IMG/VR virus record: IMGVR_UViG_3300025327_000066 | Location: 1-42,319 of that record | Strand: one strand, 5' to 3' | DNA length: 42,319 bases | Origin: a virus | Shown: piece by piece, positions 7,142 through 42,319 of the stretch | How positions within the stretch are numbered: the stretch's first letter is position 1 | How the letters are laid out: each line of letters opens with the position of its first letter | The notes under the pieces: generated by a model | What the model was told of the DNA's origin: nothing | Seen by the model: only the letters and a program-made list of their open reading frames with translations | Databases searched by the model: none | Made by a program: the position numbers and the translations under genes

Positions 7142-7294
7142 TAGTGTACATCGTACACTAACTAATAGTGTACATGATACACTAAGTACACATGTTCTAT
7201 GGTTTTAGAGGGATAGTGTCATTGGTACACTATGTGTATGGGCTAATTAGGGAGGTTTGCGCACCGGAGTAGAGTTAGTGTACCAACTACACTA
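7142..7294. promoter_or_regulatory. Array of four 19-bp palindromic operators
   Basis: Sites lie at 7142-7160 (TAGTGTACATCGTACACTA), 7166-7184 (TAGTGTACATGATACACTA), 7214-7232 (TAGTGTCATTGGTACACTA) and 7276-7294 (TAGTGTACCAACTACACTA). The shared form is TAGTGTAC-NNN-GTACACTA, with outer TAGTGT and ACACTA nearly invariant. Starts are spaced by 24, 48 and 62 bp. This is the layout of a cooperative repressor binding region. No other copy was noticed in the window. Confidence 0.85.
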
Positions 7295-9934: not shown

Positions 9935-9945
9935 GTAGATAATAC

Positions 9946-9975
9946 TTGACTAAGTTACTTTATGGGGATTAAGAT
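9946..9975 (+). promoter_or_regulatory. Possible rightward promoter before the portal gene
   Basis: TTGACT (9946-9951) and TAAGAT (9970-9975) lie 18 bp apart, just after the large terminase stop. The unusual 18-19 bp spacing is shared with the promoter-like sequences at 7636 and 17858. The transcript would begin with the hairpin element at 10000. Confidence 0.4.
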
Positions 9976-9999
9976 AGAGATGAATGTGATATCTTCTTC

Positions 10000-10066
10000 G
10001 GGCGGTCTCAGACTATTCGGGTAATGGGGGCACGAACGCATCCTCCCGTTCCTGCCCCAACCGCCC
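10000..10066 (+). ncRNA. Folded RNA element between terminase and portal
   Basis: GGGCGGT (10000-10006) pairs with ACCGCCC (10060-10066), closing a domain that contains a long inner hairpin: GGGGCA (10027-10032) with TGCCCC (10053-10058), a C-C mismatch, then GAACG (10034-10038) with CGTTC (10047-10051), and an 8-base loop. It has no tRNA arms and no T-run. It may be an independent small RNA, a packaging or processing element, or a leader structure of the portal message. Confidence 0.55.
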
Positions 10067-10131
10067 TCTTATTAAAGGAAAGGGGTAAACCCTTGATTAA
10101 GTCCCTTCTTAGTAAAGGATTCTTTCACTAA

Positions 10132-12081
10132 GTGGTGACAACAAGGCAACCCCCTTCGGGCTCTGAAGCCCGCCGCTTACAAGAAGAGCTAACTTTTATC
10201 TGGGGCAATGCGTTCCGTCGTGACCAGAGGATGCGTGACCTGGCTAACCTCAAGAATGTAGTAGAGCTACTTCCTGTCACCTCTACTATGTCGATTCAGC
10301 CTGTTCAAATGCACACAGGGCGGGCTGGAAGCCTCATAGACCATGCACAGAGCTTTGTCGTTTCTCTTCCTTCAGTGTCCGTAGAGCCTAAAAATGCCCT
10401 TACAGAGACCCGGAGGGAGTCAGAGCAGTCTGAGCGGTTTTTCAATGCTATATTTAACGAGCAGCTTGTAGCAAACGGCTTCTGGAGCAACCTGGGGCGG
10501 AGTTTGCTTCTTACTGGCCGTGGAGTCCTCCTCACTCTGCCTTTCCCCGCTGCATGGACGGCTGAGGCTGGCTTCCCTGTGAGGCAGCCAAAGGAGCGGG
10601 GGAAAACCTATATAGAGAGGGTGAACACATGGAAAAGAGAAGAGGGGAAGACTCCTATTCTTATTCAGAGTATTCCTAGTGACGACATACTCCTGAAGCT
10701 AGATAGTAATGATACTGTGCTTGCTGCATTGGAAACCAAGCTCATCTCCGCTTCGGTGGTCGCAGAATCTCTCGGTAGCTCCCAGATAGCCGAGCTACTT
10801 CAGCGCGGCACACTTAAACACTACGACCAGATGCCGGTGCTCCAGTATATAGATGATATCTATGTATGCTATTATCTCATTACTACTAAGCCGGTAAGAC
10901 AGTTCGATACTACCTATACTGATGCACGGACGGTTACCTTTGTGCCGGACTCCCAGCCTTATAAGAGCCTGAAGTCCTGGGAACATGGCTTGGGTAAGTG
11001 TCCTGTGGTGTTCATTCCTGGGGTTAAAACAGACGAAAAGGAATACGAATTCCGTTTCAAGCCTTTCCTTGCCGACGCTGAGGAAGACCTGGAAATGTAT
11101 GACTTCCTCATGTCGCGTCTGGCTACAATGGTTAAAGCGTTTTACTTCCCCAGTTTCATCTGGCAGTATGGCAGGAACTCTAGTGAGTTTCTAGGCCAGG
11201 ATAGGCCAGAGGAAGACGTAAACCTTGGGGGCACCACTGTTATATATTCTGATGAGAATATCTCAGTACCCCAACCTCCTCCGAACCTACCCGATGCCAC
11301 TTTGCTTGCACAGCAACTAGAAGAGCTTATACAGCGCAACACATTGGAGGATGTGCTTTTTGGTAAAGTCCAGGGGAGTGCCCCTGCTTTTGCCATTCGG
11401 TTGAGAATAAATGTAGCCAAGAATAAACTTGTCCCCCAAGTAACCCATATGGCCCTTGGGCTAACAGAGTCATTCGACCTTGTAACCCGTGCAGTAGAAC
11501 AGCTAGGAGAAGAAGTAGTAGTTAATGGAGAGTATATCACTCCTAAGATGGCTATCCTAGCTCGCGGGCGTATAGGAGTCAACGTTGACCCCAAACTTCC
11601 TGGTGAGGAAGGAATCGACCTCCAGAAGGCGGCGATGGCTCTTAATCTTAGACTCCCTGAGCCCTGGGTGTGGGAGCACATACTAGGGATTGCCGACCCC
11701 GCGACTCTTGCGCTGTTCAGAGATGTCCTAGAGCTTGAAGAAGACCCAGAAGTAAAGGCGCGGCTAATCCGCGACGGCCTGGAAGACCTACAGGCAAGGA
11801 TAGAAGAAGAAGAGACCACTGGGATTCTTGAGGCGCTGGATAAGATTGGAGATAAGCTAGACCCAGAAGTAGTAATGTTGCTCCAACAGCTTGCAGGTGG
11901 AGGGGCCGGTGGAGTTATGCCAGCAGAGGCTGGTGCTCCTGGGTTGGGTCGAGGCCCATTCCCTCCAGGGGCAAGCAACCAAGCGGTAGGCGGGGGTAGA
12001 GGGCTAGGTACACAAAAAGCTCCGCGCCCAGGAATGGAAGCCGTAGAGCCCGCCGCGACAGGGAGCGAGCCGGAGTTCTAA
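10132..12081 (+). CDS. Portal protein
   Basis: A 649-residue protein forming the dodecameric ring at the capsid vertex through which DNA enters and leaves. Supporting features are its position directly after the large terminase, its size, and portal-like segments such as SLIDHAQSFVVSLPSVSVEPKN (about 63-85), the LLLTGRGVLLTLPFPA strand (about 128-143), and a long helical stem region in the centre (TLLAQQLEELIQRNTLEDVLFG). The last 60 residues are Gly- and Pro-rich and probably disordered. The start is a GTG at 10132, with a second GTG next to it; AAAGGA lies 12 bases upstream, so the exact start is uncertain. Confidence 0.85.
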   Translation: MVTTRQPPSGSEARRLQEELTFIWGNAFRRDQRMRDLANLKNVVELLPVTSTMSIQPVQMHTGRAGSLIDHAQSFVVSLPSVSVEPKNALTETRRESEQSERFFNAIFNEQLVANGFWSNLGRSLLLTGRGVLLTLPFPAAWTAEAGFPVRQPKERGKTYIERVNTWKREEGKTPILIQSIPSDDILLKLDSNDTVLAALETKLISASVVAESLGSSQIAELLQRGTLKHYDQMPVLQYIDDIYVCYYLITTKPVRQFDTTYTDARTVTFVPDSQPYKSLKSWEHGLGKCPVVFIPGVKTDEKEYEFRFKPFLADAEEDLEMYDFLMSRLATMVKAFYFPSFIWQYGRNSSEFLGQDRPEEDVNLGGTTVIYSDENISVPQPPPNLPDATLLAQQLEELIQRNTLEDVLFGKVQGSAPAFAIRLRINVAKNKLVPQVTHMALGLTESFDLVTRAVEQLGEEVVVNGEYITPKMAILARGRIGVNVDPKLPGEEGIDLQKAAMALNLRLPEPWVWEHILGIADPATLALFRDVLELEEDPEVKARLIRDGLEDLQARIEEEETTGILEALDKIGDKLDPEVVMLLQQLAGGGAGGVMPAEAGAPGLGRGPFPPGASNQAVGGGRGLGTQKAPRPGMEAVEPAATGSEPEF

Positions 12082-21011: not shown

Positions 21012-21326
21012 ATGAGTAAGTTTGTCACGTATGAAACGATGGCGGGCACCGGAGCAGCCCAATCCCTCGGTGCCACCATATTAACCTCTTCCACTGGCTT
21101 CGACGTAAGGATAGTTCGTATCTATGTTGAGACCGCCCCTATCAGGTTTACCCTTAATGGTACTGCGCCTGTGGCTGCTACTACCGGCGAGGTAGCTCAA
21201 GTAGGGGATGTACTACTGCTCTTCGGGGCTGAGTGCCGTACCTTCCAATTTATCAATGAGACAGGTACTGCGTCTTCGCTCAAGATGCATGGTGGACTCT
21301 GGCAGGCCAAGGAGGATTTTAGATAA
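21012..21326 (+). CDS. Small beta-rich virion protein (104 aa)
   Basis: A compact protein of alternating strands (FVTYETMAGTGAAQSLGATIL, FDVRIVRIYVETAPIRFTLNG, VGDVLLLFGAECRTFQFINETG) ending in LKMHGGLWQAKEDFR. The pattern is like that of small beta-sandwich decoration or connector proteins. GAGAGGAG lies 11 bases before the ATG. It shares one base with the following gene (TAATG), and both products have a similar strand pattern, suggesting duplicated or cooperating surface proteins. No family is named. Confidence 0.65.
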   Translation: MSKFVTYETMAGTGAAQSLGATILTSSTGFDVRIVRIYVETAPIRFTLNGTAPVAATTGEVAQVGDVLLLFGAECRTFQFINETGTASSLKMHGGLWQAKEDFR

Positions 21327-39210: not shown

Positions 39211-39388
39211 GTCTAGTCCTCTTCACTGCCTGTATCAAATCGTGAGCTACCTCTAATGCACAAGGAGGGCAGAATACGTAGGACACCACGTGGGCAAGGA
39301 TTATTTTAGGAAGCTCAAGGTCTTTACAAAGGGTGCAAGGCTCTTCAGCTTCAATACCCAATGGGGCGCGGACTTCAAGCTGGGGCAT
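39203..39388 (-). CDS. Cys-rich small protein (61 aa)
   Basis: A 61-residue product with CTLC (18-21) and CPPC (40-43), a compact zinc knuckle pair with 18 residues between, then a helix (ALEVAHDLIQAVKRTRH). Its start overlaps the end of the 90-aa gene by 14 bases, and its own end overlaps the nuclease gene. It may help nuclease or recombination proteins bind DNA. Not recognised. Confidence 0.6.
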   Translation of the reverse strand: MPQLEVRAPLGIEAEEPCTLCKDLELPKIILAHVVSYVFCPPCALEVAHDLIQAVKRTRHA

Positions 39389-39647
39389 TGGTGACTTCCT
39401 TTAACCAACTAGGCAGCGGATTCTTCTTCCTATCCTGATACATATCATGGTCAGAGTGAGGCCGGTAGTACCTGAATGCTACCATAGCTTCTCTCTGTGG
39501 AGCCTTGCGTATCTCACTCCAAGCATAGGCATGAGCCTTCCTGCACTTCCCGCCACACCTATAAGGCCCCAGTTTTACCTCTGTCTCCGGCCAGCCAAAA
39601 GCCTGGATGTACAGAGAGACAGCCTGCGTTATATCTGGTGTAGCCAT
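39375..39647 (-). CDS. Hypothetical protein (90 aa)
   Basis: Start placed at ATG 39647 (MATPDITQAVSLY), since AGGAGG lies four bases before it; the open frame extends upstream to 39758 but that part (MPESQPPGRVFRFKLRG) lacks a site. CGGKC at 31-35 and His/Tyr-rich region RYYRPHSDHDMYQD suggest metal binding. It precedes the anti-Shine-Dalgarno hairpin gap. Not recognised. Confidence 0.6.
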   Translation of the reverse strand: MATPDITQAVSLYIQAFGWPETEVKLGPYRCGGKCRKAHAYAWSEIRKAPQREAMVAFRYYRPHSDHDMYQDRKKNPLPSWLKEVTNAPA

Positions 39648-39822
39648 TATTCCTCCTGCACTATCTCCTTTTTCTCCGGCCAGGCGGGGCATCTTCATGT
39701 TGGTTCTACCCCTGAGTTTGAACCTGAAAACTCTGCCTGGTGGCTGGCTTTCTGGCAAATCTCAAGCCCCGTCGGTCTTTTTGACTGCCTTCTTACCTTA
39801 AGGATGCCCTTCCTGGCCGAAG

Positions 39823-39862
39823 CTGGAGCAGGGCCGAAAGGAGGTGAAAAACCCTGCTCCAG
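39823..39862 (-). other. Hairpin with 16S-tail-like (anti-Shine-Dalgarno) loop
   Basis: CTGGAGCAGGG (39823-39833) and CCCTGCTCCAG (39852-39862) form an 11-bp stem with an 18-base loop. On the minus strand, which is transcribed here, the loop reads TTTTTCACCTCCTTTCGG, containing TCACCTCCTTTC, identical to the 3' end of 16S rRNA. The element lies 17 bases after the stop of the 286-aa gene, in a 231-base gap. No U-tract follows on that strand. It could base-pair with AGGAGG ribosome sites in phage mRNAs. The plus strand instead presents AAAGGAGGTGA. Confidence 0.7.
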
Positions 39863-39878
39863 ACCCGACTGTTACTAT

Positions 39879-40739
39879 CTAACTAGCTTCTTCCTTTCCA
39901 TTCAGACTAACAATCCCATTAATAATAGTGACTAACCCTTCGCCTTCTAGCCTAGCCGCGAGCTTCCCACTAACCGCACTAGCCATCACTGACTCGCCTC
40001 CTATCTGGATATTATGAGAAATCCCAGCGGCCATCAAAGCCTCATCAAGCGCCTGCATGGGCTTACCTTCAATGGCCTTGAGTACGCTGGCCTGCGCCTC
40101 TTCGTCCTGCATAATATCCCTGAAGTTGGCTGGGCTCGGTGCCTGCTGTCCCTCTTCATTGACCTGACTTGCTGGCGGGAGAATCCTCACATCTCCAGTA
40201 AAGATATAATCAGTCCCCAACACAGCAGTAGGCAAGGGCGCAGCGAAATTCACTGGGTCACGGTCGTTCTCCCTGTTACGCGGAGGCTTCTCCACAATAA
40301 AGTGGTTGTTCACTATCTTGGTAGCATCAAACCCTGGGTTATCCCCGATAGTGTCTACTCCATGAGCAACACACCAGGAGTCGAATCGCCCACTAGAATC
40401 ACCAGGGAACGCAGTAATCCCTAGCCCAGCAAACGCCTTGCTAATCTTGGCGGGCCTCTGGTTCTTATCAGCCATATGGTATGTTCCGTCCTGCCGCTTG
40501 GAGAATAGCCTGCAACCAGACGAAACGTTGACTGCCCCTCCATCAGCCTGCTTTGCGTCTAGAGCTATGTACTGAATGTCCCAGTATGGCTGGTCGGGGT
40601 CTAGCCCCTCTGGTAGCTGGCGCATCCGGCCACGAGTCACGGCCTCTGCGACTGTGATAATCTCGTCAACCACACACCGCACGTGATTCTTAAAGGTAAG
40701 CGGCTCACGCTCTGGTGCGTCGTTAGGGTTATACGGCAT
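39879..40739 (-). CDS. Probable single-stranded DNA-binding protein (286 aa)
   Basis: No definite family match. Supporting an SSB role are its place between a family A polymerase and a nuclease/annealing module, its own promoter (40785-40813) and strong AGGAGG, a beta-rich core (YWDIQYIALDAKQADGGAVNVSSGCRLFSKR, NNHFIVEKPP), and an acidic, Gln/Asp-rich linker followed by a C-terminal winged-helix-like domain (about 220-286: DEALMAAGISHNIQIGGESVMASAVSGKLAARLEGEG). The N-terminal part reads as a replication protein (NHVRCVVDEIITVAEAVTRGRMRQLP). Alternatives are other DNA-binding replication factors. Confidence 0.55.
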   Translation of the reverse strand: MPYNPNDAPEREPLTFKNHVRCVVDEIITVAEAVTRGRMRQLPEGLDPDQPYWDIQYIALDAKQADGGAVNVSSGCRLFSKRQDGTYHMADKNQRPAKISKAFAGLGITAFPGDSSGRFDSWCVAHGVDTIGDNPGFDATKIVNNHFIVEKPPRNRENDRDPVNFAAPLPTAVLGTDYIFTGDVRILPPASQVNEEGQQAPSPANFRDIMQDEEAQASVLKAIEGKPMQALDEALMAAGISHNIQIGGESVMASAVSGKLAARLEGEGLVTIINGIVSLNGKEEAS

Positions 40740-40840: not shown

Positions 40841-42319
40841 TTACAAAAGATTTTCATTGTTCCAATACTTGCTGCACTTAACCTCGACTGGCGCACCAAT
40901 CCGAGGTAGATACTCCCTTGCTGTCTCCTCCATGATACTCTTAAACTGCTGCTTGAGCAAGGGTATGTCGCCATCTGTGGGGATATAAGCATGAATACTG
41001 TCATGCACCTGATTAACCAGCATCCAGCCCTCTTGAAACAGCCTGACCATAGCAGCCTTAGTGATATACCCAGCCATCGATTGTGTAGGATGGTTAATAG
41101 CCTGCTTGTAGGCTGAGTCTCCGCTTAAAAGTGAGATAGGCCGCACATGAAGGAAGGGTTCAGGCGAAACCGACTTGCCTGTCCGCTGTACTTCTCTCCA
41201 ATGCTCCTCTGTGAACTTCCACCAACCTACCCATAAACTGCGGTGCCGAGCCATCAGGCTCTCTACCTCTCTTATTGGCCTGCTTACTACTTGGCTGACA
41301 AAGTTCGCTCCACCTCCATAAAGTCCAGCGCCGAAGTTGAAGTTCTTAGCCTTCACTCTGCTATCTAGGCCGAGTGCTACTCTGGTTTCCTCGTGGATAT
41401 CTCTACCTTCTCTAAATGCTTCAAGAAGGTAGGTGTCGTTTGAAATCTCAGCCGCACATCTAAGCTCTGCCCCAGAGTAGTCTCCCCTGATAAGTAGCAT
41501 ACCTTCAGGCGCTCGTAAGCACCATTCCATTGCGTCAGGCTGATTCTGTAGATTACTTCGCTCACTACTTAGCCTTCCTGTCTGTGTGCTGCCTTCACCC
41601 TCTTCACTAGGAGTAATGTTAAACAGCCCAGCTAGCTTGTCCTTTCCTCTATTGGGATAGAAATAGGTAGTCAACAGTTTGTCCGCTGTCACCCACTGGT
41701 GCCGGAGAAACGCAGCCAGCGCATACTCGCCTTCCCCCTTCTCTGCTTCCTCTAGGAATTTCTTGTCTACACTCCTGACTCCAAAGTAACGCTGGAGTTG
41801 AAGGGGGGAGTTAATCCCAGGGCGTCCGTACTTCTCGACGTAATCTGTGCCGGACTTACGGACTCTCTTTCTCCGGCTGAGAAGTATCTCTGACTCACCC
41901 ACGAGTCGCTGAAAGGAAGCAGCAGTACGAGCAACCACTTCTTCCGAGGCTGTAATAGCTCGCTCCAGTCTATCGGCATCAATTTCGTATCCTCTGTAGC
42001 TACAATCAATGAGTGCTGGTATGAGTGCTCTATCAATATCATAGCAGGTTCCTCTCTGCTTCTCATGTAGTATAGGAAACAGCCTCTGAGTCAGCCACAA
42101 GTCTTGCGCGTGATACTGGTCTGCTCCGACTAGTTCCTGTTGAGAGTAACTTACCGTCTGTACTCCGAGATACTTCTGCGCCAGTCCTTTGAGTGAGAGG
42201 TCTTCCTCTCCTTGGCAGTAGGCTAGAGCTAGGGTATCTTCTACCCCTACACCTTGTAGCCAACCTCTGTGAGTTTGAGTCTGTGGCTTGAGGTGATACT
42301 CAGGAGGAAAAGGCTTCTC
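40841..42319 (-). CDS. DNA polymerase family A, 5' end outside the window
   Basis: The frame is open from the stop at 40841 through the right edge; the ATG-like start near 42100 is only internal. The visible 492 residues include, near the edge, the Exo-type region VEDTLALAYCQGEEDLSLKGLAQKYLG and YHAQDLWLTQRL, so a 3'-5' exonuclease domain precedes the polymerase. In the polymerase part are motif A IRGDYSGAELR, motif B RVKAKNFNFGAGLYGGGANF and motif C NQVHDSIHAY. Motif A has Gly after DYS as in T7-type DASG, and motif C has HDS rather than HDE. It likely replicates the phage genome. Confidence 0.9.
   Translation of the reverse strand, partial: EKPFPPEYHLKPQTQTHRGWLQGVGVEDTLALAYCQGEEDLSLKGLAQKYLGVQTVSYSQQELVGADQYHAQDLWLTQRLFPILHEKQRGTCYDIDRALIPALIDCSYRGYEIDADRLERAITASEEVVARTAASFQRLVGESEILLSRRKRVRKSGTDYVEKYGRPGINSPLQLQRYFGVRSVDKKFLEEAEKGEGEYALAAFLRHQWVTADKLLTTYFYPNRGKDKLAGLFNITPSEEGEGSTQTGRLSSERSNLQNQPDAMEWCLRAPEGMLLIRGDYSGAELRCAAEISNDTYLLEAFREGRDIHEETRVALGLDSRVKAKNFNFGAGLYGGGANFVSQVVSRPIREVESLMARHRSLWVGWWKFTEEHWREVQRTGKSVSPEPFLHVRPISLLSGDSAYKQAINHPTQSMAGYITKAAMVRLFQEGWMLVNQVHDSIHAYIPTDGDIPLLKQQFKSIMEETAREYLPRIGAPVEVKCSKYWNNENLL

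Follow-up and report, generated by a model that had tools for sequence, protein, structure and literature searches.

An anti-Shine-Dalgarno hairpin loop within a candidate cis-acting translational leader of an orphan phage

What is the role of a hairpin that presents an anti-Shine-Dalgarno (anti-SD) sequence in its loop and lies between two genes of a phage? The hairpin, here called H1, is located at 39823..39862 on the minus strand of the window, which is the whole stretch of DNA analysed (an IMG/VR virus record of 42,319 bp). Its arms are perfectly complementary (39823-39833, CTGGAGCAGGG, and 39852-39862, CCCTGCTCCAG) and are separated by 18 nt, giving an 11-bp stem that is lengthened in RNA by two closing pairs to 13 bp. 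The minus-strand sequence of the loop is ...TTTTTCACCTCCTTTCGG... and contains UUUUUCACCUCCUUUCGG; TCACCTCCTTTC, at 39836-39847 within this loop, has its single occurrence in the window. The anti-SD stretch at 39836..39847 (minus), UCACCUCCUUUC, matches the consensus 16S rRNA 3' tail of many bacteria, and identity to the 16S tail is meant here as identity to this consensus.

H1 sits in a 231-nt minus-strand gap, which runs from the stop codon of the ORF at 39879-40739(-) to an ATG at 39647. The upstream ORF (39879..40739, minus) encodes an orphan protein of 286 aa with a coding score of 0.333 and ends with a stop codon 16 nt before H1. The downstream ORF (39375..39647, minus), the proposed regulated gene, encodes 90 aa with a weak coding score of 0.095, and no family or homologue was found for it. 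The minus-strand block around H1 comprises a family-A DNA polymerase, the 286-aa ORF, the gap, the 90-aa ORF, a 61-aa ORF and a PD-(D/E)XK exonuclease assigned to phrog_2139. A preliminary description of this DNA had reported the 11-bp perfect stem with a 12-base loop match to the 16S tail, a non-coding gap and the lack of a terminator T-run. All of these were confirmed, the match being to the consensus tail: the plus-strand ORFs spanning the gap score as non-coding, and neither strand has a T-run or U-run after H1. Its labels "early transcript" and "recombination operon" were inferred, the recognisable neighbours being the exonuclease and the polymerase. An intrinsic terminator, which needs a GC-rich hairpin followed by a U-run, was rejected for H1 as the U-run is absent, and a tRNA, tmRNA or Rfam RNA was rejected as none was detected. 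The DNA polymerase ORF (window 40841-42319) extends past the end of the record, so that either the record is incomplete there or the ORF crosses a circular join. At the record start, positions 1-28 hold a near-perfect 14-nt inverted repeat (TTTATCATGGAAGC / GCATCCATGATAAA), which may mark an end of the genome or of the contig.

The surroundings of H1, which the preliminary description missed, show that the hairpin belongs to a larger structured region. This region is predicted to be about 220 nt long and lies in the gap, with H1 as its 5' part. The minus-strand RNA of 39815-39870 folds at -30.6 kcal/mol (z -5.3), and the plus-strand fold of the same segment is weaker (-24.0 kcal/mol, z -3.3). 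Directly 3' of H1 is a multibranched domain (39674..39822, minus; fold z -5.4 to -5.7). It has a closing helix of 11 bp, which joins 39812-39822 to 39674-39684, and an inner helix of 7 bp, and it again folds better on the minus strand (z -5.7) than on the plus strand (z -4.1). This strand preference of both H1 and the domain is as expected for an RNA and not for a DNA palindrome. The bounds of the domain were taken from the fold, and an unbiased scan of the whole window selects the same region. In that scan (RNALfold with z-scores, both strands, all 42 kb), which reports locally optimal structures with bounds not chosen by the analyst, minus 39651-39844 ranks first with z -6.13. The weight of this rank can be judged from the share of the searchable length, about 0.3%, that the 231-nt gap on the right strand makes up. 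The scan also finds strong structure in other gaps of the phage, and we count this against a cis-acting leader.

The top-scoring fold, 39651-39844, does not contain H1. In this fold H1 is open and the CCUCCU of its loop (39839..39844, minus) is paired with AGGAGG at 39652..39657 (minus), which the sequence and the computed folds indicate as the Shine-Dalgarno sequence (SD) of the 90-aa ORF and as the proposed target. The right arm of H1 is also used, pairing with a GGAG just upstream of AGGAGG and so lengthening the closing helix of the domain. We call this alternative the OFF fold and that with H1 the ON fold; as computed, they use the same bases and are mutually exclusive. H1 was present in every 5'-prefix fold tried. 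When its left arm was blocked, the unpaired probability of the SD was 0.14, as against 0.4-1.0 in the free state, depending on the ends. The free energy of OFF minus ON ranged from -0.2 to +6.4 kcal/mol across 20 choices of transcript ends, leaving out rows that start at 39650, where the SD motif is cut off. The energies thus favour ON at most transcript ends, and OFF may never be populated.

The pairing partner of the loop is not an exceptional one. Among 44 ribosome sites of the phage, the cis SD ranks 9th as a duplex partner of the loop and 6th as a partner of the loop plus arm. It ranks 3rd of 44 for long-range SD pairing, comparable pairing being computed at two other starts of the phage (a comparison from which the "noH1" column was excluded, its constraint having removed other pairs too). 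The pairing of the 25-nt segment with the downstream region exceeds that of 98.7% of window 25-mers, but when the segment itself is shuffled, only 89.5% of the shuffles pair less well. Pairing is to be expected between any SD and any anti-SD; the cis site is favoured by proximity and by continuity with the closing helix, not by unusual complementarity.

On these grounds we tentatively suggest that the minus-strand transcript carries, in this gap, a structured leader that acts in cis and would tune translation of ORF 39375-39647, a reading that is plausible and far from assured. It is supported by the whole-window scan, which ranks this stretch and this strand first with CCUCCU paired to AGGAGG. 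With two exclusive folds, one of which masks the SD, H1 can be read as an anti-sequestrator. In the ON state H1 would fold first and keep the anti-SD in its loop, so leaving AGGAGG at 39652-39657 free and the next ORF translatable. Opening of H1 would release the anti-SD, and in the OFF state CCUCCU and the right arm would pair with the ribosome-site region, continue the closing helix of the domain and hide the SD. The balance might be shifted, for example, by a ribosome ending the upstream gene, by a protein or by a ligand; a terminating ribosome is one possible trigger because the upstream stop is so near to H1. We infer that the region is transcribed, that it folds and switches in this way, and that triggers of this kind act on it. 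Masking of an SD would matter to this phage, as many of its genes use strong GGAGG-type SDs.

Translational riboswitches and related 5' leaders work with a sequestrator and an anti-sequestrator, i.e. two exclusive folds, one of which hides a downstream SD. The computed folds of the gap have the layout of such a leader switch, an upstream segment complementary to the downstream SD together with a competing hairpin, and here too the folds are exclusive and an anti-SD stretch hides the SD in one of them. Unlike those leaders, the gap has no known aptamer, Rfam match, ligand or homologue, and its anti-SD, placed in a hairpin loop inside an operon, reproduces the 16S tail exactly. In phages with a C4 antisense RNA, a segment of the transcript pairs with regions around ribosome sites that the transcript itself encodes. 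Like C4, the gap would provide a phage RNA segment complementary to a ribosome site on its own transcript. It differs from C4 and its a1/b1 targets (Rfam RF01695, RF03163; listed in PMC2864571) in its structure and in having no Rfam match above cut-off, and genes for immunity or an antirepressor were not recognised here. A bolder version of the leader reading, which we regard as improbable, would make the gap a new RNA family, a bistable leader in which an exact anti-SD copy is parked in a loop and released to shut the next gene, possibly cued by translation of the upstream gene or by the level of free ribosomes. If the leader reading is true, the phage would switch translation within its replication operon by moving a copy of the host anti-SD. 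The element is thus a new candidate leader RNA, of interest with its mechanism predicted.

A simpler explanation, which we consider possible but rather doubtful, is that H1 is an operon-internal element of mRNA stability or processing, and that its 16S-tail match is due to chance or is the relic of a plus-strand ribosome site. The stem is indeed very stable and lacks a U-run. In random 18-nt loops, a match to the tail of at least 10 nt in either orientation had p ~1.5e-5, and an 11- or 12-nt match was found in 0 of 200,000 trials; for 12 nt the probability per loop is of order 1e-6. As the window has just one other perfect hairpin of this class (at least 10 bp, loop of 8-25 nt), a pure coincidence is unlikely, although any phage contains SD-like words more often than a random sequence would. 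As to a relic, the H1 loop read on the plus strand is the SD sequence AAAGGAGGTGA, and among the hairpins with this motif in other phage DNA are some, L181 and L225, that are ribosome sites on the opposite strand. A functional plus-strand ribosome site was rejected, there being no ATG, GTG or TTG at usable spacing and no overlapping plus ORF that scores as coding, and the same observations speak against a relic, as does the better folding of the minus strand. A directed search for further members of the class with the 14-mer TTTCACCTCCTTTC gave 124 places among the loci kept, most of them without a flanking stem. The clearest case with a stem (L181) was rejected, being a ribosome site of an opposite-strand gene.

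The preliminary description had proposed that the loop could pair with AGGAGG sites in mRNAs of the phage or of the host, either decoying ribosomes or regulating translation in general. The hairpin, free or on an mRNA, would then act in trans on ribosome sites or as a decoy for ribosome-bound mRNA. The sequence of the loop does allow such pairing: it is fully complementary to strong SDs, and its duplexes with ribosome sites of the phage are strong in several cases, the strongest (-18.8 kcal/mol) being at 21012. There is also a precedent in alpha-proteobacteria, where the alpha-r14 or cuckoo sRNAs carry anti-SD motifs in unpaired hairpin regions and silence mRNAs by pairing with their ribosome sites, as NfeR1 silences ntrB (PMC10746234). 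Like these sRNAs, H1 shows an anti-SD in an unpaired region that is able to pair with ribosome sites. The cuckoo sRNAs are, however, free and trans-acting, with three hairpins and the motif CCUCCUCCC (PMC10746234), whereas the gap has one loop, with UCACCUCCUUUC, in a phage operon leader. Nor does H1 resemble an independent gene, since a consensus scan found neither a promoter-like site just upstream of it nor a terminator at its end. Other phage DNA, about 1 Mb in all, showed no enrichment of anti-SD sequences in hairpin loops relative to permuted motifs, and an untargeted anti-SD would also strike the phage's own GGAGG-led genes. A trans or decoy role thus found no specific support. It is disfavoured by the lack of a promoter or terminator beside H1, by the larger leader and by the nearest AGGAGG lying on the same RNA, in front of the next ORF; we consider it unlikely, and a cis-acting leader more likely. 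The preliminary description knew of no phage element with this design. As a general claim of novelty this is wrong, since the cuckoo sRNAs already present anti-SD sequences in hairpins; for phages, a short literature search found no example.

The multibranched domain at 39674-39822 could also be a structured non-coding RNA or aptamer with a function of its own, such as ligand sensing, and H1 its expression platform. Its fold (z -5.4 to -5.7) and its place directly upstream of a strong SD would suit an aptamer. Such a claim requires conservation, and we think it quite unlikely. The gap has no Rfam match at E<=10, no Rfam family reached the gathering threshold anywhere in the window, and for this orphan phage no relative with the element was found among phages and plasmids at the nucleotide level. 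At the protein level, IMG/VR gave no usable relatives for polA, the 286-aa ORF, the terminase or the 90-aa ORF; a degenerate polA motif in IMG/VR gave nothing usable, and polA searches in genomes gave none. Relatives of the exonuclease were found at 32-49% identity (L015-L094, L219-L226), with no other ORF of the module close enough to align the gap and only weak generic matches to polA. Conservation of the stem was also sought through seven exact stem pairs in viral contigs; these were rejected because the loci are unrelated and their loops differ, and at least some are probably coding repeats read CTG GAG CAG.

A DNA-level element, either a MITE-like insertion with imperfect 20-nt inverted repeats (39674-39693 and 39803-39822 do form an imperfect inverted repeat adjoining H1) or a protein or replication site, is very improbable, as the window holds no second copy and the phages and plasmids none, no target duplication was seen, and the element folds better as minus-strand RNA.

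Further structured or palindromic sites were observed in the record. A second strongly structured gap, 9935-10190 (+), runs from the terminase to the next long ORF (GTG 10132), with a local fold of z -5.9 on the plus and -5.6 on the minus strand; it has a hairpin with CAUCCUCC in the loop, and an AAAGGA ribosome site lies inside another hairpin. The second most unusual fold of the window (z -6.05, plus) is at 2667-2756, where a 26-nt inverted repeat (81%) has 13 nt between its arms. The region that separates the left minus-strand genes from those on the plus strand contains, at 7142-7294, four operator-like palindromes TAGTGT...ACACTA (at 7142, 7166, 7214 and 7276), which are probable repressor or activator sites.
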